Notes under the pieces: model-generated
What the model was told of the DNA's origin: nothing
What the model saw: only the letters and a program-made list of their open reading frames with translations
Database searches by the model: none
Made by a program: the position numbers and the translations under genes
Shown here: one piece after another, positions 49,045 through 56,591 of the stretch
How positions within the stretch are numbered: the stretch's first letter is position 1
How the letters are laid out: each line of letters begins with the position of its first letter
Source of the DNA: Nonomuraea africana
Lineage (GTDB): Bacteria > Actinomycetota > Actinomycetes > Streptosporangiales > Streptosporangiaceae
DNA length: 64,000 nt
Reading direction: 5' to 3'
Assembly (NCBI RefSeq): GCF_014873535.1
Contig: NZ_JADBEF010000001.1
Span: 2,046,001-2,110,000 of the forward strand

Positions 49045-49221
49045 CGTTTAAATCCGGATGGCCTACCAGAAACCGGATATTTGATCATAAAATAGGGCAC
49101 GGAATCCTTGTTCGGAACACACGGCCTCGCGAAGTATTGGAAGGCGAAGGGCGCTTGCGGGCGCTGGTCACGCCGGAGCGCGCAAGAGAGGCGTCCGACG
49201 TCCCCGAGTGGGGGAGGAATC

Positions 49222-49833
49222 ATGGCCGTTGCCCAGCCCGGAGCGCGCACGACCAAAGGGCTCACGCTCGATCTGCCGCTTCTCACCATCCAGGTCCGCC
49301 GCCCCGACCTGCGGATGCCGAACATCCCGAAGCCGCACCTCGAGATGCCGGACATCCCGCTCCCGCGCCTGTCCCGGCAGGAGGTCGGGCATGCCGTGGA
49401 CATCGCCAGGACCTTCCTTCCCCCGCCCGACCGCATCGCCTACTACGGCGCGCTGGGCGCGCTTGCGGCCTTCGGTGTGCTGGAGTGGCCGGTGGCCGCG
49501 GCCATCGGCGCGGGCGCGATGATCGCGCAACGCGGTCGGCAAGGGGAGGGCGGACCCCCGGAGCGCACGGCGCAGGAGTCCCCGTCCGCCGCCGAGCGCA
49601 GCCGCGCCGCGACCACTGTCACGCCGAAGAGCACCGTCACGCCGAAGAGCACCGTCACGCCGAAGAGCACCGCCGCGTCCAAGGGCACCCCCAAGACCGC
49701 CGCCGTGTCCAAGGGCACCTCGTCAAAGAGCACCGCCGCTTCGACGGACACCTCTCCAGGTAAGCCCGCCTCCGCCGCCACGTCACGCGGCGCCCGGAGG
49801 AGCACCGCCGGGCGCCCGCGGTCGGGCGGGTGA
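49222..49833 (+). CDS. protein with one membrane segment and histone-H1-like repeat tail
   Basis: 203 aa from the ATG at 49222 with GGGAGG upstream. Order: a Pro-rich repeat region with motif PxIPxPxL (MPNIPKPHLEMPDIPLP, residues about 32-48), an amphipathic helix (SRQEVGHAVDIARTFLPPPDR), one hydrophobic segment (YGALGALAAFGVLEWPVAAAI), then a 95-residue basic Lys/Ala/Thr/Ser tail with tandem VTPKST repeats. Such tails bind nucleic acids or are disordered linkers. It is next to the chaperone operon. Role unknown; a nucleoid-linked or membrane-anchored scaffold is speculation. Confidence 0.65.
   Translation: MAVAQPGARTTKGLTLDLPLLTIQVRRPDLRMPNIPKPHLEMPDIPLPRLSRQEVGHAVDIARTFLPPPDRIAYYGALGALAAFGVLEWPVAAAIGAGAMIAQRGRQGEGGPPERTAQESPSAAERSRAATTVTPKSTVTPKSTVTPKSTAASKGTPKTAAVSKGTSSKSTAASTDTSPGKPASAATSRGARRSTAGRPRSGG
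49618..49671 (+). repeat. 18-bp tandem repeat, three perfect copies
   Basis: GTCACGCCGAAGAGCACC is repeated exactly at 49618-49635, 49636-49653 and 49654-49671, encoding VTPKST three times. Identity at the DNA level suggests recent slippage expansion and possible copy-number variation between strains. Confidence 0.9.
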
Positions 49834-50074
49834 GCTCGGGGCTCGCCTCGTTCAGACATCGTTCGGGGAGCGGTCGGTGCGCAGGAGTGCCTCGCCTACT
49901 GCCAGGGGGCCGGCGGGGGAATTCTGCGTGGCGTCGCAGGCTGAGGAGTACGCCCGCCTGGGCGGCGCGGGCGACTGCGCGTTCGAACAGCCCGGCCGCG
50001 TCACCTGACTCGGCGCGGTGCCACTCGGTGGTAGAGAGCTCGAAGCGGTAGCCGCGGCCTTGGCCGTCGGTCAT
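49655..50074 (-). CDS. possible small protein, start region clear and end unclear
   Basis: From the ATG at 50074 (MTDGQGRGYRFELSTTEWHR), with GGGGG about 7 nt upstream, the first 45 codons have good G/C third-base bias and a helical, acidic-then-basic sequence (AGLFERAVARAAQAGVLLSLRRHAEF). After that the frame becomes low-complexity Arg/Cys text antisense to the repeat-tail gene. The true gene may stop near 49840 after a frameshift, or be decayed. Family not recognised. Confidence 0.35.
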   Translation of the reverse strand: MTDGQGRGYRFELSTTEWHRAESGDAAGLFERAVARAAQAGVLLSLRRHAEFPRRPPGSRRGTPAHRPLPERCLNEASPELTRPTAGARRCSSGRRVTWRRRRAYLERCPSKRRCSLTRCPWTRRRSWGCPWTRRCSSA

Positions 50075-50268: not shown

Positions 50269-52152
50269 ATGTCCAGGGCAGTCGGAATCGACCTGGGTAC
50301 CACGAACTCTGTCATCGCGGTGATGGAGGGCGGCAAGCCGACCGTCATCGCCAACGCGGAGGGTTCGCGCACCACCCCTTCGGTGGTGGCCTTCACCGAC
50401 CAGGGAGAGCGACTGGTCGGTCAGATGGCCCGCCGTCAGGCGATCCTGAATCCGAAGGGCACGATCTCGTCCGCGAAACGGTTCATCGGCCGCCGCCACG
50501 GCGAGGTCACCAGCGAGATGAACGCGGTCTCCTTCGACGTGGTCCAAGGCCCGGACGGTGCGGTGCGCTTCGACGTGCGCGGCCGGCAGTACGCGCCGGA
50601 GGAGATCTCCGCGCAGGTCCTGCGCAAGCCGGCCGACGACGCCGCCAAGTTCCTCGGCGAGAAGGTGACCGAGGCGGTGATCACCGTACCGGCCTACTTC
50701 AACGACGCCCAGCGGCAGGCCACCAAGGACGCCGGCCGGATCGCGGGTCTGACGGTGCTGCGCATCATCAACGAGCCCACGGCGGCGGCGCTCGCCTACG
50801 GGCTGAACAAGCGGGCGAACGAGACCGTCCTGGTATTCGACCTGGGTGGCGGCACGTTCGATGTCAGCATTCTGAGCATCGGCGACGACGTCGTCGAGGT
50901 GCGGGCCACCGCCGGTGACGGCCACCTGGGTGGCGACGACTTCGACCGCAGGATCGTCGACCATCTGGCCGAGCAGTTCCAGCGCGAGAACGGGATCGAT
51001 CTGCGCGCGGATCCGCAGGCCCTGCAACGCCTCTTCGAGGCGGCCGAGAAGGCCAAGGTCGAGCTGTCGTCGGTGAGTCAGACACAGGTGAGCCTGCCGT
51101 TCGTCACCGCCGACGCGACCGGGCCCAAGCACCTCAACACGACCCTGATGCGGTCGACCTTCGAACAGATCACCACGGATCTGGTCGAACGCTGCACCGG
51201 CCCGGTGCAGCGGGCGATGGCGGATGCGAAGATCACCTCGAGTGACATCGACGAGGTGATCCTGGTCGGCGGCTCCACCCGGATCCCTGCCGTCCAGAAC
51301 CTGGTCCGCCGGCTGACTGGCGGCAAGGACCCCAACATGTCCGTCAACCCCGACGAGGTCGTGGCGATGGGCGCGGCGATCCAGTCCGCCGTGCTCAAGG
51401 GCGAGGCGAAGGACGTGCTGCTGCTGGACGTCACGCCGCTGTCCCTGGGCGTGGAGACGCTCGGCGGCGTGATGACCAAGGTGATCGAGCGCAACACCAC
51501 CATCCCGGCCCGGCGTACCGAGACGTTCAGCACCGCCGAGGACAACCAGAGCGCGGTCGATGTGGTGGTGCTGCAGGGCGAGCGGGAACGGGCCGCCGAC
51601 AACCGGGTACTGGGCCGGTTCCGGCTGGAGAACATCCGGCCCGCTCCGCGCGGCGTCCCGCAGATCGAGGTGACCTACGACATCGACGCCAACGGAATCC
51701 TCAACGTCTCCGCCAGGGACAAGGACACCGGCGCCGAGCAACGGATCACCATCAGCGAGAGCTCCAACCTGGACCAGAGCGAGATCGAGCGGATGATCGC
51801 CGAGGCCGAGCAGCACCGCGGCGAGGACGCCAGGCTGCGTGAGCAGATCGACGCGCGCAACGAGCTCGACTCGGTGGCCTACCAGGTCGAGCGCCGCCTG
51901 CGGGAGCTGGGCGAGGCGGTGCCCGTCCACGAGAAGGCGCGGGCCGAGATGCTCGTGAACGACGCCCGGCAGGCGGTCAAGAGCGAGGCGCCGCTGGAGC
52001 GGCTCCGCACGCTCACCTCCGAGCTGCAACAGATCTTCCACGGTCTGGCCGCGGCCACCGGCCCGGCGGGCGGGCCGGGAGCCGGACCGGGCACGGGCAC
52101 GACGGGAGGGCCGGACGACGATGTCATCGACGCCGACTACACCACCTCCTGA
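50269..52152 (+). CDS. dnaK: chaperone DnaK (Hsp70)
   Basis: 627 aa. ATP-driven folding chaperone. N-terminal ATPase: [17 protein letters not shown] at residues 6-22, [45 protein letters not shown] and [11 protein letters not shown]. The substrate domain ([23 protein letters not shown]) and helical lid follow, ending in a Gly-rich linker and [12 protein letters not shown]. An atypical lysine-poor loop ([16 protein letters not shown]) replaces the usual KLKEDAE. This is probably a second, stress-specific DnaK. The downstream grpE overlaps by 32 bp. Confidence 0.97.
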
Positions 52153-52696
52153 CGAGCCTGACGAGCCTGACGGCGAGCTGCGGGAGGCGGCGGAGTCCCC
52201 GCCCGGTCCCCAGCCCGAGGCTTCGTCCGAGGAGGATCCCGCCGCGCTGGCCGAGCGGCTCAAGGCGCAGGTGGCCGAGCTGGAGGACGTCGGGCGGCGG
52301 GCGCTGGCGGACGCGGACAACCTGCGCAAGCGCTTCGAGCGGGAGGCCGACCGGGAACGGCGACGCGAGCGGGCCCGTGTCGCCGCCCGGTGGCTTCCGG
52401 TGCTGGACAACCTCGAGCGCGCGCTGCAGCACGCCGAGGCCGACCCCGGCCTCATCCTCGACGGTGTACGGGCGGTGCGCGACCAGGCGGTGGAGGTGCT
52501 GGCCGAACTCGGCTACCCGCGGCGGGACGAGGTGGGGGTGCCGTTCGACCCTGCCCTGCACGAGGCGGTGAGCGTCATGATGGACACCGACGCCATCCCC
52601 GGAACGGTGGTGCGGGTCCTTCAGCCAGGTTACGGCGACGGCGAACACCAGCTGCGGCCCGCGCTGGTCTCGGTGGCGGCGAAGGCAGGACAGTGA
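52121..52696 (+). CDS. grpE: nucleotide exchange factor GrpE
   Basis: 191 aa. An acidic N-terminal tail leads into a long coiled coil ([34 protein letters not shown], in parts), then [20 protein letters not shown], and the beta head with the hallmark [16 protein letters not shown] and [21 protein letters not shown]. Releases ADP from the DnaK encoded just upstream. Its start lies 32 bp inside dnaK, and its stop shares TGATG with the dnaJ start. Confidence 0.95.
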
Positions 52697-53634
52697 TGGC
52701 GGTCCGTGACCCGTACAAGGTGCTGGGAGTGGCGCGCGACGCGAGCCAGGACGAGATCCAGCGCGCCTACCGCAAACTCGCGCGCGCCTTTCATCCCGAC
52801 ATCAACAAGGGCCCTGAGGCCGAGGAGAAGTTCAAGGACGTCGCCGAGGCGTACGCGATCCTGTCGGATCCCGAGCAGCGCCGCCGCTACGACACCTTCG
52901 GCGCGGACTTCCGCCAGGTCCCGCCGGACGTCGACCCGGCGATGTGGGCCAGGACCAGGCGCGGCGCCGGGGCCGGCGCCACCTCCTGGGCCGGCGCCGG
53001 ACGGGGCCCCGGCGGGGGCTTCGAGACGAGGTTCGGAGAGGACATCGATCTCGACGCGCTCTTCGGCGGCGGCTTCTTCGGGCGGCGCGGGCCCGGCGGC
53101 TGGGGACCGGTCCCCGGCGCGGACCAGGAGGCCGAGCTCGAGGTGTCGGTCGAGGAGGCCTATCACGGAGGTCGCCGCTCGATCACCTTCGACGGCGGAC
53201 GGACCATCCAGGTCACCCTGCCCCCAGGCGTCACGGAGGGGCAGCGCATCCGCGTGGCCGGACAGGGCGGCCGCGGTGTCGGCGGGCCGCCCGGCGACCT
53301 GTATCTCGTCGTGCGCATCGCACCGCATCCGCGCTTCCGCGTTCGGGGTCGTGACCTGCATGTCGATCTGCGGCTGACACCGTGGGAGGCGGCGCTGGGC
53401 ACGTCCGTGCCCGTGCGGACCCCCGGCGGGGAGGCTCAGGTGCGGGTCCCGCCCGGCAGCTCCAGCGGGCGGCGGCTACGGCTGCGCGGCCGCGGGCTGC
53501 CCAACCCGCGCGGCTCGCCGGGAGACCTCTACGCGGAGGTGCGGATCATGATCCCGGCGACACTCACCGACCAGGAGCGGCGACTGTACGAGCAGCTCGC
53601 CGCCACGTCATCGTTCGATCCGAGGAAAGCGTGA
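52696..53634 (+). CDS. cbpA: DnaJ-family co-chaperone, CbpA type
   Basis: 312 aa from the ATG at 52696. J domain residues 6-70 with HPD at 33-35. A Gly/Phe-rich linker follows (GAGATSWAGAGRGPGGG, FGGGFFGRRGPGG), then two C-terminal substrate-binding beta domains (AELEVSVEEAYHGGRR, LPPGVTEGQRIRVAGQG, and RRLRLRGRGLPNPRG). There is no four-repeat zinc finger, so it is a class B (CbpA) protein, not classical DnaJ. TGATG overlaps on both sides. Confidence 0.94.
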   Translation: MAVRDPYKVLGVARDASQDEIQRAYRKLARAFHPDINKGPEAEEKFKDVAEAYAILSDPEQRRRYDTFGADFRQVPPDVDPAMWARTRRGAGAGATSWAGAGRGPGGGFETRFGEDIDLDALFGGGFFGRRGPGGWGPVPGADQEAELEVSVEEAYHGGRRSITFDGGRTIQVTLPPGVTEGQRIRVAGQGGRGVGGPPGDLYLVVRIAPHPRFRVRGRDLHVDLRLTPWEAALGTSVPVRTPGGEAQVRVPPGSSSGRRLRLRGRGLPNPRGSPGDLYAEVRIMIPATLTDQERRLYEQLAATSSFDPRKA

Positions 53635-53963
53635 TGCGGCCAAACGAACACTTCGCCGACAGCCATGCTCTGGTCCGCGTCGGCCGTCCGGCCCGGCTGG
53701 ACCTGGAGGCCTTCGCCCGAGCCGCCGACACCCACCCGGAGCTGGTGCGCCGCCTGGTCTGCCTCGGCGTGCTGGAGGCGGAGCAGACGTCCACCGGACA
53801 GCTGTGGTTCTCCTCGGCCGAGCTGGCCTCGCTGGCGCGGATCCAGCGCCTGCGCGCGGCCTTCTCCCTCAACTACGCGGCCTTGGGCCTGGTGTGCGAT
53901 CTGCTCGACCGCATCGCCGCGCTGGAGGCGGCGCTGCACAGTGACCCTCGACAGACCCGCTAG
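53634..53963 (+). CDS. cbpM: chaperone modulator CbpM-like, MerR-like fold
   Basis: 109 aa from the ATG at 53634. Short MerR-like protein with no full MerR DNA-binding N-terminus: [30 protein letters not shown], then [45 protein letters not shown] (described in parts). CbpM binds the J domain of CbpA and inhibits it. Its place after cbpA supports that role over HspR, which carries a clear DNA-binding helix and regulates a HAIR box. TGATG overlap with cbpA. Confidence 0.85.
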
Positions 53964-53977
53964 ACCGGAGGCGGACG

Positions 53978-56591
53978 GTGGACGCCAACAGACTGACCCA
54001 GAAATCCCAGGAGGCGCTGCACGACGCGCAGACCAGGGCGCTGCGCTTCGGGCACACCGAGGTGGACGGCGAGCACCTGCTGCTGGCGCTGCTCGACCAG
54101 GCCGAGGGGCTCATCCCCCGGGTGCTCGAAGACGGCGGCGCGCACCCGGACCGGCTGCGCGCCGACCTCGAGGCCGAGCTGTCCAGGCGGCCCAGGGCGA
54201 CCGGGCCCGGAGCGGCGCCGGGACAGGTCTACCTGACCCAGCGACTGTCCCGGCTCCTGGATGCCGCCGAACGCGAGGCGGGACGGCTGAAGGACGAGTA
54301 CGTGTCGGTCGAGCACCTGCTGATCGCCCTGCTGGACGAGGGCCCGCAGACCGCGGCCGGCCGCCTGCTGCGCAGGCACAGGGCCTCACCCGCGACCGCT
54401 TCCTGCAGGCCCTCAGCACGATCCGCGGCAGCCAGCGCGTCACCTCGGCCACGCCCGAGGCCGCCTACGAGGCGCTGGAGAAGTACGGCAGGGACCTGGT
54501 CGCCGACGCCGCGAACGGCAGGCTGGAGCCGGTGATCGGCCGCGACACCGAGATCCGCCGCGTCGTCCAGATCCTGTCGCGCAAGACCAAGAACAACCCG
54601 GTGCTCGTCGGCGACCCCGGCGTCGGCAAGACCGCCATCGTGGAAGGCCTGGCCCAGCGCAGCGACCACGGCGATGTCCCCGAGGGCCTCAAGGACAAGA
54701 CGATCTTCGCGCTCGACATGGGCGCGCTGCTGGCGGGGGCGAAGTACAGGGGCGAGTTCGAGGAGCGGCTCAAGGCGGTGCTGGGCGAGGTCAAGGCCGC
54801 CGAAGGGCGCATCCTGATGTTCGTCGACGAGCTGCACACCGTCGTCGGGGCCGGCGCCGCCGAAGGGGCGATGGACGCGGGCAACATGCTCAAGCCCATG
54901 CTGGCCCGCGGCGAGCTGCATCTGATCGGCGCCACGACTCTCCAGGAGTACCGCAAGCACATCGAGAAGGACGCCGCGCTCGAGCGCCGCTTCCAGCCCG
55001 TCCTGGTCGACGAGCCGTCCGTGGAGGACGCCGTGTCCATCCTGCGCGGCCTGCGCGAGCGGCTGGAGGTCTTCCACGGCGTCAAGATCCAGGACGGCGC
55101 CCTGGTGGCGGCCGTCGTCCTGAGCCACCGCTACATTTCCGACCGCTTCCTGCCGGACAAGGCGATCGATCTGGTGGACGAGGCGTGCGCGATGCTCCGT
55201 ACCGAGATCGACTCGATGCCCGCGGAGCTGGACGAGCTGACCCGAAGGGTGATGCGCCTGGAGATCGAGGAAGCCGCGCTGTCCAAGGAGAGCGACCCGG
55301 GTTCCCGGGCGCGGCTGCGGGAGCTCAGCGGGGAGCTGGCCGATCTGCGCGCCGAGGCCGGCGCGATGCGCGCCCAGTGGGAGGCTGAGCGGCAGTCGCT
55401 GCGCAAGGTCCAGGAGCTGCGCCTGCAGATGGAGAGCATCCGCCACCAGGCCGAGCAGGCCGAGCGCGACTACGACCTCAACCGCGCCGCCGAACTGCGG
55501 CACGGCAGGCTCCCCGACCTGGAACGGCGGCTGAGCGCGGAGGAGGAGCGGCTGACCGCCAAACAGGACGGACGCGGGCTGCTTCGCGAGGTGGTGACCG
55601 AGGAGGAGGTCGCCGGCATCGTGTCGCGGTGGACCGGGATCCCGGTCAGCCGGCTCCAGGAGGGCGAGCGGGACAAGCTCCTGCGCCTGGACGAGATCCT
55701 CCACGAACGCGTCATCGGCCAGGACGAGGCGGTGCGGCTGGTGGCGGACGCCATCATCAGGGCCCGCTCGGGCATCAAGGATCCGCGCCGGCCGATCGGC
55801 TCGTTCGTCTTCCTCGGGCCCACCGGCGTCGGCAAGACCGAGCTGGCCCGATCGCTGGCCGAGGCGCTCTTCGACACCGAGGACAACATGGTCCGCCTGG
55901 ACATGAGCGAGTACCAGGAGCGGCACACGGTCAGCCGGCTGGTCGGCGCGCCGCCGGGGTACGTGGGGTACGAGGAGGGCGGCCAGCTCACCGAGGCGGT
56001 ACGGCGCAAGCCGTACTCCGTGGTGCTGTTCGACGAGATCGAGAAGGCGCACGCGGACGTCTTCAACACGCTGCTGCAGGTACTGGACGACGGGCGGCTG
56101 ACCGACGCGCAGGGCCGGACCGTCGACTTCCGCAACACGGTGATCATCATGACGTCGAACATCGGCTCGGAGCACCCGCTCGAGGGGGTGACCCCGGGCG
56201 GCGAGCTCAAGCCCGAAGGACGGGAGCGCGTCATGGCGGCGCTGCGCCGGCACTTCCGGCCCGAGTTCCTCAACCGGATCGACGACATCGTGCTGTTCAA
56301 GCCGCTGACCCAGCAGGAGATCGAGCGCATCGTCGACCTCATGCTCGCCGATATCGGGAACCGGCTGGCCGATCGCCGGCTGACGCTGGAGGTGTCCGAG
56401 GCGGCCCGCGCCTTCATCGCCCGGCAGGGCTTCGACCCCGTCTACGGCGCGCGTCCGTTGCGCAGGTTCATCGCTCGTGAGCTGGAGACCCGCGTCGCCC
56501 GGGCCCTGCTGACCTGACCGGGCAGGTCGACGACGGCTCGACGATCCACGTCGATGTGAAGAAGGGTGAGCTGGTCGTCGGCGGTCACTAA
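53978..56591 (+). pseudogene. clpB: ClpB disaggregase gene broken by two frame shifts
   Basis: Encodes a full ClpB layout in three frames. The N-domain ([27 protein letters not shown]) runs in frame from 53978. At about 54380-54381 two extra bases (AG) shift the frame; without them [14 protein letters not shown] would be continuous. NBD1 follows ([37 protein letters not shown]), then the coiled-coil middle domain and NBD2 ([40 protein letters not shown]). At 56510-56519 TGACC is duplicated, giving a premature stop at 56515; in the third frame GQVDDGSTIHVDVKKGELVVGGH ends at TAA 56589. Real inactivation, or sequence error. No good internal start precedes NBD1. Confidence 0.85.

Follow-up and report, generated by a model that had tools for sequence, protein, structure and literature searches.

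A candidate accessory membrane protein of very large CtpH/CtpI-like P-type ATPases in actinobacteria

An open reading frame of Nonomuraea africana encodes a small tailed membrane protein of a conserved family. In the loci examined, members of the family are mostly encoded directly upstream of a very large P-type ATPase, and their presence follows that pump across genomes. From genome context and sequence we judge, with moderate confidence, that they are small accessory membrane proteins of very large actinobacterial CtpH/CtpI-like P-type ATPases. The gene lies in a window of 64,000 nucleotides (the whole stretch of DNA that was analysed), where it sits beside a chaperone gene cluster.

A three-part membrane protein with a basic arm

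The gene reads from an ATG at 49222 to a stop codon at 49831-49833. Its ribosome site, GGGGAGGAATC, and its N-terminus, MAVAQ, are kept in three relatives and nearly kept in a fourth, making 49222 the likely start rather than the TTG upstream at 49108. The features of the gene and its borders are these:

49055..49221, plus strand: upstream region similar to a pump-linked relative (alignment; the blastn match to L002/L063 begins at 49055)
49222..49833, plus strand: gene for the tailed membrane protein, 203 aa, stop included in the coordinates
49261..49371, plus strand: N-terminal strand-like LTLDLPLLTIQVRRP and Pro-rich pentapeptide array, residues 14-50 (alignment; length a multiple of 5)
49375..49416, plus strand: predicted helix SRQEVGHAVDIART, residues 52-65 (AlphaFold at low confidence; conserved in the alignment)
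49435..49533, plus strand: hydrophobic membrane segment, residues 72-104, read as a hairpin (conserved columns; predicted helices)
49537..49830, plus strand: basic low-complexity C-terminal tail, residues 106-203 (composition; AlphaFold pLDDT)
49618..49671, plus strand: three perfect 18-bp copies encoding VTPKST, residues 133-150 (sequence; Tandem Repeats Finder; codon shuffles)
49834..49856, plus strand: end of DNA similarity to pump-linked loci (the blastn match to L063 stops at 49856, 23 nt past the stop)

From its N-terminus the protein comprises a short basic arm, a strand, Pro-rich pentapeptides, a helix, a hydrophobic stretch and a basic tail. The open reading frame and the alignment bear out the division into Pro-rich region, hydrophobic segment and basic tail that a sequence-only reading had proposed. 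Pentapeptides in series make up the Pro-rich part (RMPNI PKPHL EMPDI PLPRL in the window protein), and the stretch from strand to YYG is a multiple of five residues long in 31 of 42 proteins (L085, for which the script misplaced the strand, stands outside the 31). An alignment of 20 cores has 17 invariant columns, including Y74, Y75, G85, W89, P90, G96 and G98. The invariant W89-P90 stands at the middle of the hydrophobic segment, and G76 and G79 form a nearly invariant GxxG pair. AlphaFold (three sequences, low confidence) places helices at residues 52-65, 68-83 and 89-107, which suggests that the hydrophobic stretch is broken near E88-W89-P90.

The family appears to be new to Pfam and NCBIfam, as no model for it was found. 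The window protein matched no Pfam family at E<=1 and nothing in NCBIfam, and neither four relatives searched against Pfam nor one searched against NCBIfam gave a match. Two mycobacterium-like relatives returned nothing over a curated cut-off, and a search of solved structures found no counterpart (best E 0.8).

The tail is basic, repetitive and probably disordered. From residue 106 onward it holds 98 aa with 17% K+R, 5% D+E, a net charge of +12 and 4% hydrophobic residues, the basic low-complexity composition of a histone H1-like tail. The perfect triple 18-bp repeat noticed at the outset is exact and far beyond chance: Tandem Repeats Finder reports 3.3 copies of 18 bp at 97% match (score 111), the VTPKST DNA contains a 37-nt exact self-match run at lag 18, and none of 20,000 codon-shuffled tails came to 37 nt at any of 8 lags (shuffle maximum 16). 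Disorder, also proposed from the sequence, is supported by AlphaFold pLDDT values below 50 over most of the tail and by C-tails that are net positive in 41 of 42 proteins. L102 is positive by +1 only; the exception is L003, an open frame without most of the tail.

A basic arm may sit at either end of the protein. C-tails range from 1 to 432 aa (median 101; n=42, window protein included), with net charges as high as +88 in L087 and L089. In five relatives (L086, L090, L092, L094 and L101) the C-tail has just 23-28 aa, and these carry N-arms of 60-152 aa with a net charge of +8 to +30. This exchange between ends fits both termini being cytoplasmic, and on the simplest reading, with both ends on the same side of the membrane, the broken hydrophobic stretch would be a hairpin.

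Selection acts differently on core and tail. The core of the window gene has a dN/dS of 0.23-0.38 against six relatives, and cores of two pump-linked pairs give 0.19 and 0.30; the tail gives 0.70-1.45. The core is therefore constrained, and the tail appears to keep its composition but not its sequence.

Association with a very large P-type ATPase

In 31 of 41 related loci, the gene is followed on its own strand, at a distance of 27-358 nt, by the start of an open reading frame for a P-type ATPase. The loci come from 20 of the 29 genus genomes with strong matches and 20 of the 93 other matching family genomes, together with L003, a second copy in G042; they were fetched mostly from the better matches, and L001 = L064 and L002 = L063 are each counted once. 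The adjacent pump frames span 1,427-1,703 aa (about 1,450, with uncurated ends set by the first start codon). They carry E1-E2 ATPase and cation-ATPase C-terminal domains, and their first ~600 residues have no Pfam match. Ten loci lack an adjacent pump: in nine of them the downstream sequence extends for 6.8 kb or more and tblastn was negative as well, and in L003 it extends for 3.3 kb.

The association is also visible from the pump side. The gene stands directly upstream in 22 of 25 genus loci of close-class pumps (at least 60% identity to the L064 pump), and for the pumps at G005:C98, G045:C22 and G045:C60 no such gene was found within the fetched stretch. Distant-class pumps, 41-53% identical over the aligned part, had the gene beside them in 0 of 12 examined loci (13 listed; G042:C17 was left out). 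The family joins a putative W-P hairpin core to a genomic tie with a large pump, a tie seen in the relatives.

Gene and pump also co-occur across genomes. A protein search found the gene in 32 of 54 Nonomuraea genomes at E<=1e-3, with 29 strong matches at E<1e-20; with the 107-aa core as query, 99 of 200 family genomes matched. For the genus comparison we used the 53 genomes searched for both (the gene-positive G046 lies outside the pump search) and counted the weak matches in G009, G036 and G049 (E ~5e-4) as negatives. A pump of either class was present in 28 of 28 gene-positive genomes vs 1 of 25 gene-negative ones (Fisher p 3e-14), and at family level, with the N-terminal half of the pump at E<=1e-20 as criterion, in 94 of 99 vs 9 of 101 (Fisher p 2e-39), both p-values overstating independence because the genomes are related. 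A stricter gene threshold of E<=1e-10 in the family gave 83 of 84 vs 20 of 116. Because their genome handles match, and with the unmatched genomes listed in part, the two family searches are taken to have drawn on one set of 200.

Among gene-positive genus genomes, 23 have a close-class pump and 5 the distant class only; all five of the latter carry a 43-46% identical pump elsewhere. G037, the sole gene-negative genus genome with a pump, has one of the distant class. Five family genomes have a gene match but no detected pump (G098, G164, G199, G202 and G223), and all of these except G164 are weak gene matches. Possession of the core is not by itself a sign of a pump, since short tail-less homologues in the family at 13 loci (L112-L124; open frames of 82-145 aa ending GxAxExA) have no pump within the fetched stretch, L124 lying at a contig end.

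In the L064 pump (L064:2181-6566, minus strand), residues 292-432 resemble residues 880-1026 (26% over 155 columns, E 5e-4, one sequence), and its N-terminal half has VVLDAAALTTG at the position where the catalytic half has LCFDKTGTLTEG. From this likeness, the N-terminal half is possibly a degenerate second P-domain. Three further loci (L200, L201 and L202; G048:C33, G012:C13 and G003:C333) contain frames of 648-693 aa that match the pump's N-terminal half only, at 47-48%, with neither a catalytic half nor a partner gene found within the stretch. At one locus, L128:1-7906, two relatives of the pump are oppositely oriented, and a partner-like gene there, with a basic N-terminal repeat arm, points away from the nearer pump.

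The orphan locus and alternative readings

The basic tail alone would also suit a nucleoid or RNA anchor: by binding nucleic acid, a histone-H1-like tail would fasten the membrane, or an enzyme in it, to the nucleoid. Such an anchor would be in keeping with the tail's charge, from +12 here to +88 in L087 and L089, and with its few hydrophobic residues. It does not predict the association with a pump, however, and five relatives manage with C-tails of 23-28 aa, though their N-arms are basic. Nor can basic composition separate nucleic acid from anionic lipid as the bound surface. We consider this reading unlikely.

In the window, the gene is intact and separated from its pump. A DNA match in pieces to a pump-linked locus, that of G043, covers 49055-49856, the upstream region as well as the gene; no pump remnant was detected in the window, where the best pump tblastn match has E 0.66. 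In a tree, the window gene is nearest by path to the pump-linked L063, L065 and L064, its branching point not being fixed. In the window genome, G000, one copy of the gene was detected. The genome's one large pump relative is 44% identical and maps to C1:8188888-8192910, where no neighbouring gene of this kind was found; no close-class pump was found in this genome.

The upstream region carries a direct repeat, CGGAT-N14-CGGAT (49055-49059 and 49074-49078), that is exact in the pump-linked L001 and L002 and has one change in L065. This repeat is a possible regulator site. No sigma-70-like promoter was found.

An orphan of this kind might be a decaying remnant, left jobless once its pump had gone. 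Its position, the missing close-class pump and an end branch of 0.32 (against a median of 0.14) are what decay would produce. Yet the open frame, ribosome site and upstream region are all kept, and the core dN/dS of 0.23-0.38 indicates constraint, though it includes time before the pump was lost. Orphan genes also persist elsewhere, as judged from a well-supported clade of four loci without an adjacent pump and from the five of five genus genomes in which such genes co-occur with a pump at another site. Decay in the window genome is therefore improbable.

The pentapeptides raise the prospect of a metallochaperone for the pump, with Met, His and Pro residues forming a metal-binding site. Among relatives MPH recurs as many as five times (L068). 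The corresponding stretch of the window protein holds two His and no MPH, MPH is missing from this part of 15 of 42 proteins, and the window tail contains neither His nor Cys; metal delivery by this protein looks very doubtful.

The chaperone neighbourhood appears incidental. The dnaK gene starts at 50269, on the same strand and 435 nt after the stop of our gene, and opens a dnaK-grpE-dnaJ-clpB cluster at 50269-56517; it is one of at least two dnaK-like genes, with another match at C1:7934995. The sequence-only reading had drawn attention to this neighbourhood, but related loci lend it no support: DnaK is encoded within the fetched stretch of 1 of 41 (L102), about 6 kb off. Close copies of the window dnaK (at least 79% over at least 500 nt) exist in at least 16 of 52 other genus genomes, and their similarity begins within ~15 nt of the dnaK start (query positions 356-379; start at 370). 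Among the matches listed, 11 genomes hold both the gene and a close dnaK copy, never adjacent, the nearest pair lying ~37 kb apart in G023. With synteny in relatives favouring the pump and 49055-49856 matching a pump-linked locus, we reject a co-chaperone or stress-operon role with DnaK, GrpE, DnaJ and ClpB as extremely improbable, the shared strand and 435-nt spacing notwithstanding. The comparison of loci indicates that the gene probably belongs to the pump as a helper, not to the neighbouring heat-shock cluster.

CtpH/CtpI-like pumps, PacL and a proposed role

Relatives of the gene are also found outside the family. Searched with a profile at E<=1e-6, 394 genomes of the class gave matches in 62, of which 50 are from other families. 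A pump relative lies within the stretch at 17 of 20 fetched outside-family loci, the exceptions being L161, L173 and L178; in L170 and L172 the gene is on the opposite strand, divergent from the pump. At four mycobacterium-like loci (L160, L164, L165 and L166) the pump stands between a tailed relative before it and a tail-less relative of ~90 aa after it, and a tail-less relative also follows the pump in L162, L163 and L167. Locus L161 (7444-8711) carries tailed and tail-less small genes ~185 nt apart (measured between open-frame ends) with no pump within the stretch; the pump may have been lost naturally here and its two partners retained.

Profile comparison of the window family gives 99.4% (hhalign E 1.8e-21) with a tail-less set of eight, five of them mycobacterium-like, and 89.7% (E 1.8e-6 over 29 columns) with the tailed mycobacterium-like group. 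On this evidence the family's link to the tail-less group is firm and that to the tailed group fair; the tailed protein has a Gly/Ala-rich N-terminus where the window family has Pro pentapeptides. Core homologues of ~90 aa without a tail, which the sequence-only reading had named, together with a lack of binding in vitro, as evidence against its account of the tail, thus exist, but they form a separate group; in the proteins aligned as orthologues, at least one end still carries a basic arm.

The pumps indicate the kind of partner. Their motifs, DKTGTLT or DKTGTLS and PEGL or PEGM, and their open frames of 1,450 aa upward liken them to CtpH and CtpI (TCDB FUPA24), which are counterparts of the partner and not of the small protein. 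PEGM occurs with DKTGTLS in the pumps of L162, L163 and L166, and PEGL with DKTGTLS in those of L160, L164, L165 and L167. CtpH motifs are given as PEGM with DKTGTLS in passages of a 2012 survey (PMC3573892), so the mixed motifs of the mycobacterium-like pumps stop our naming at CtpH/CtpI-like. The same passages report that counterparts of the beta subunits of Na/K- and H/K-ATPases were not found in the M. tuberculosis complex. A 2023 review describes CtpI and CtpH as isolated, uncharacterised and possibly a unique family (PMC10654040).

By locus-tag position and size, Rv0426c and Rv0424c are the putative counterparts of the small genes in M. tuberculosis, on either side of ctpH. Their sizes fit the tailed and tail-less relatives that flank the CtpH/CtpI-like pump in mycobacterium-like loci. 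A published table lists 13.9 kDa for Rv0426c and 10 kDa for Rv0424c (PMC2396618), and ctpH is listed as Rv0425c (PMC4119724). Rv0426c is reported to promote intracellular survival of recombinant mycobacteria (Ruan 2020, as cited in PMC12436412), with no pump link in the passage concerned. Within the titles, abstract openings and passages searched, subscription journals being mostly outside, we found no tie of Rv0424c, Rv0426c or the related small proteins to CtpH.

The closest functional parallel is PacL. PacL1, PacL2 and PacL3 (DUF1490, PF07371) are described as partners of the mycobacterial P1B-ATPases CtpC, CtpG and CtpV; PacL1 has a disordered cytoplasmic part, is encoded with the zinc pump CtpC, stabilises it and clusters with it, and conserved PacL membrane residues, including GxxG, are reported essential for PacL clusters (passages of PMC9374683 and PMC13043812). 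Both families are small actinobacterial membrane proteins with a disordered, repeat-containing region, encoded with a P-type ATPase; in our family that adjacency holds for 31 of 41 related loci, not for the window itself. Both also have GxxG in the membrane segment, at G76 and G79 in the window family. In the window protein a tail with pLDDT below 50 follows, which would be cytoplasmic.

Likeness ends at sequence and partner. PacL serves P1B pumps, whereas the window family accompanies CtpH/CtpI-like pumps of ~1,450 aa. Profile comparison by hhalign gives a probability of 0.2%, with no detectable sequence relation. Whole-genome searches for PF07371 found it in 0 of 3 genus genomes, G000 included, and the window protein has no match to it; DUF1490 genes are present in 4 of 7 searched genomes of the mycobacterium-like genus, one ground for taking it as Mycobacterium. 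The C-terminal Asp/His metal-binding motif of PacL is absent: the window protein ends in ...GARRSTAGRPRSGG, and residues 106-203 contain no His. We therefore reject homology to PacL and propose an independent pump-partner family that would work in a similar way.

We envisage the protein as a tethered organiser of the pump. The YYGxLGALAxxGxxEWPVAAAIGxGxxIAQR segment would form a membrane hairpin that docks on the pump or clusters it, with both protein ends in the cytoplasm. The basic arm, rich in Thr, Ser, Ala and Lys, may act as an electrostatic tether or organiser of pump assemblies, as PacL1 does for CtpC, and we guess that it most likely holds to anionic lipid or an acidic surface. Its many Thr and Ser residues could, as a further guess, provide a kinase switch through phosphorylation. 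In the window organism, the neighbouring pump gene would have been lost or left behind while the core stayed under constraint, and the protein would serve the 44%-identical pump elsewhere in the chromosome.

A broader reading, which we offer tentatively and hold less firmly than the accessory role itself, is that giant CtpH/CtpI-like pumps, so far regarded as single polypeptides, are multi-part machines with dedicated small hairpin subunits, the tail setting clustering or activity according to cell state. One such subunit would bear the basic tail and, in mycobacterium-like genomes, another would lack it; as a group they may constitute a class of accessory subunit new for P-type ATPases.

The value of the finding lies in a candidate accessory subunit for the CtpH/CtpI group, for which a conserved, co-inherited small partner offers a direct handle on pump function. 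If the accessory reading is true, actinobacteria would have, besides PacL, a second and unrelated pairing of a P-type ATPase with a membrane protein that has a disordered tail.
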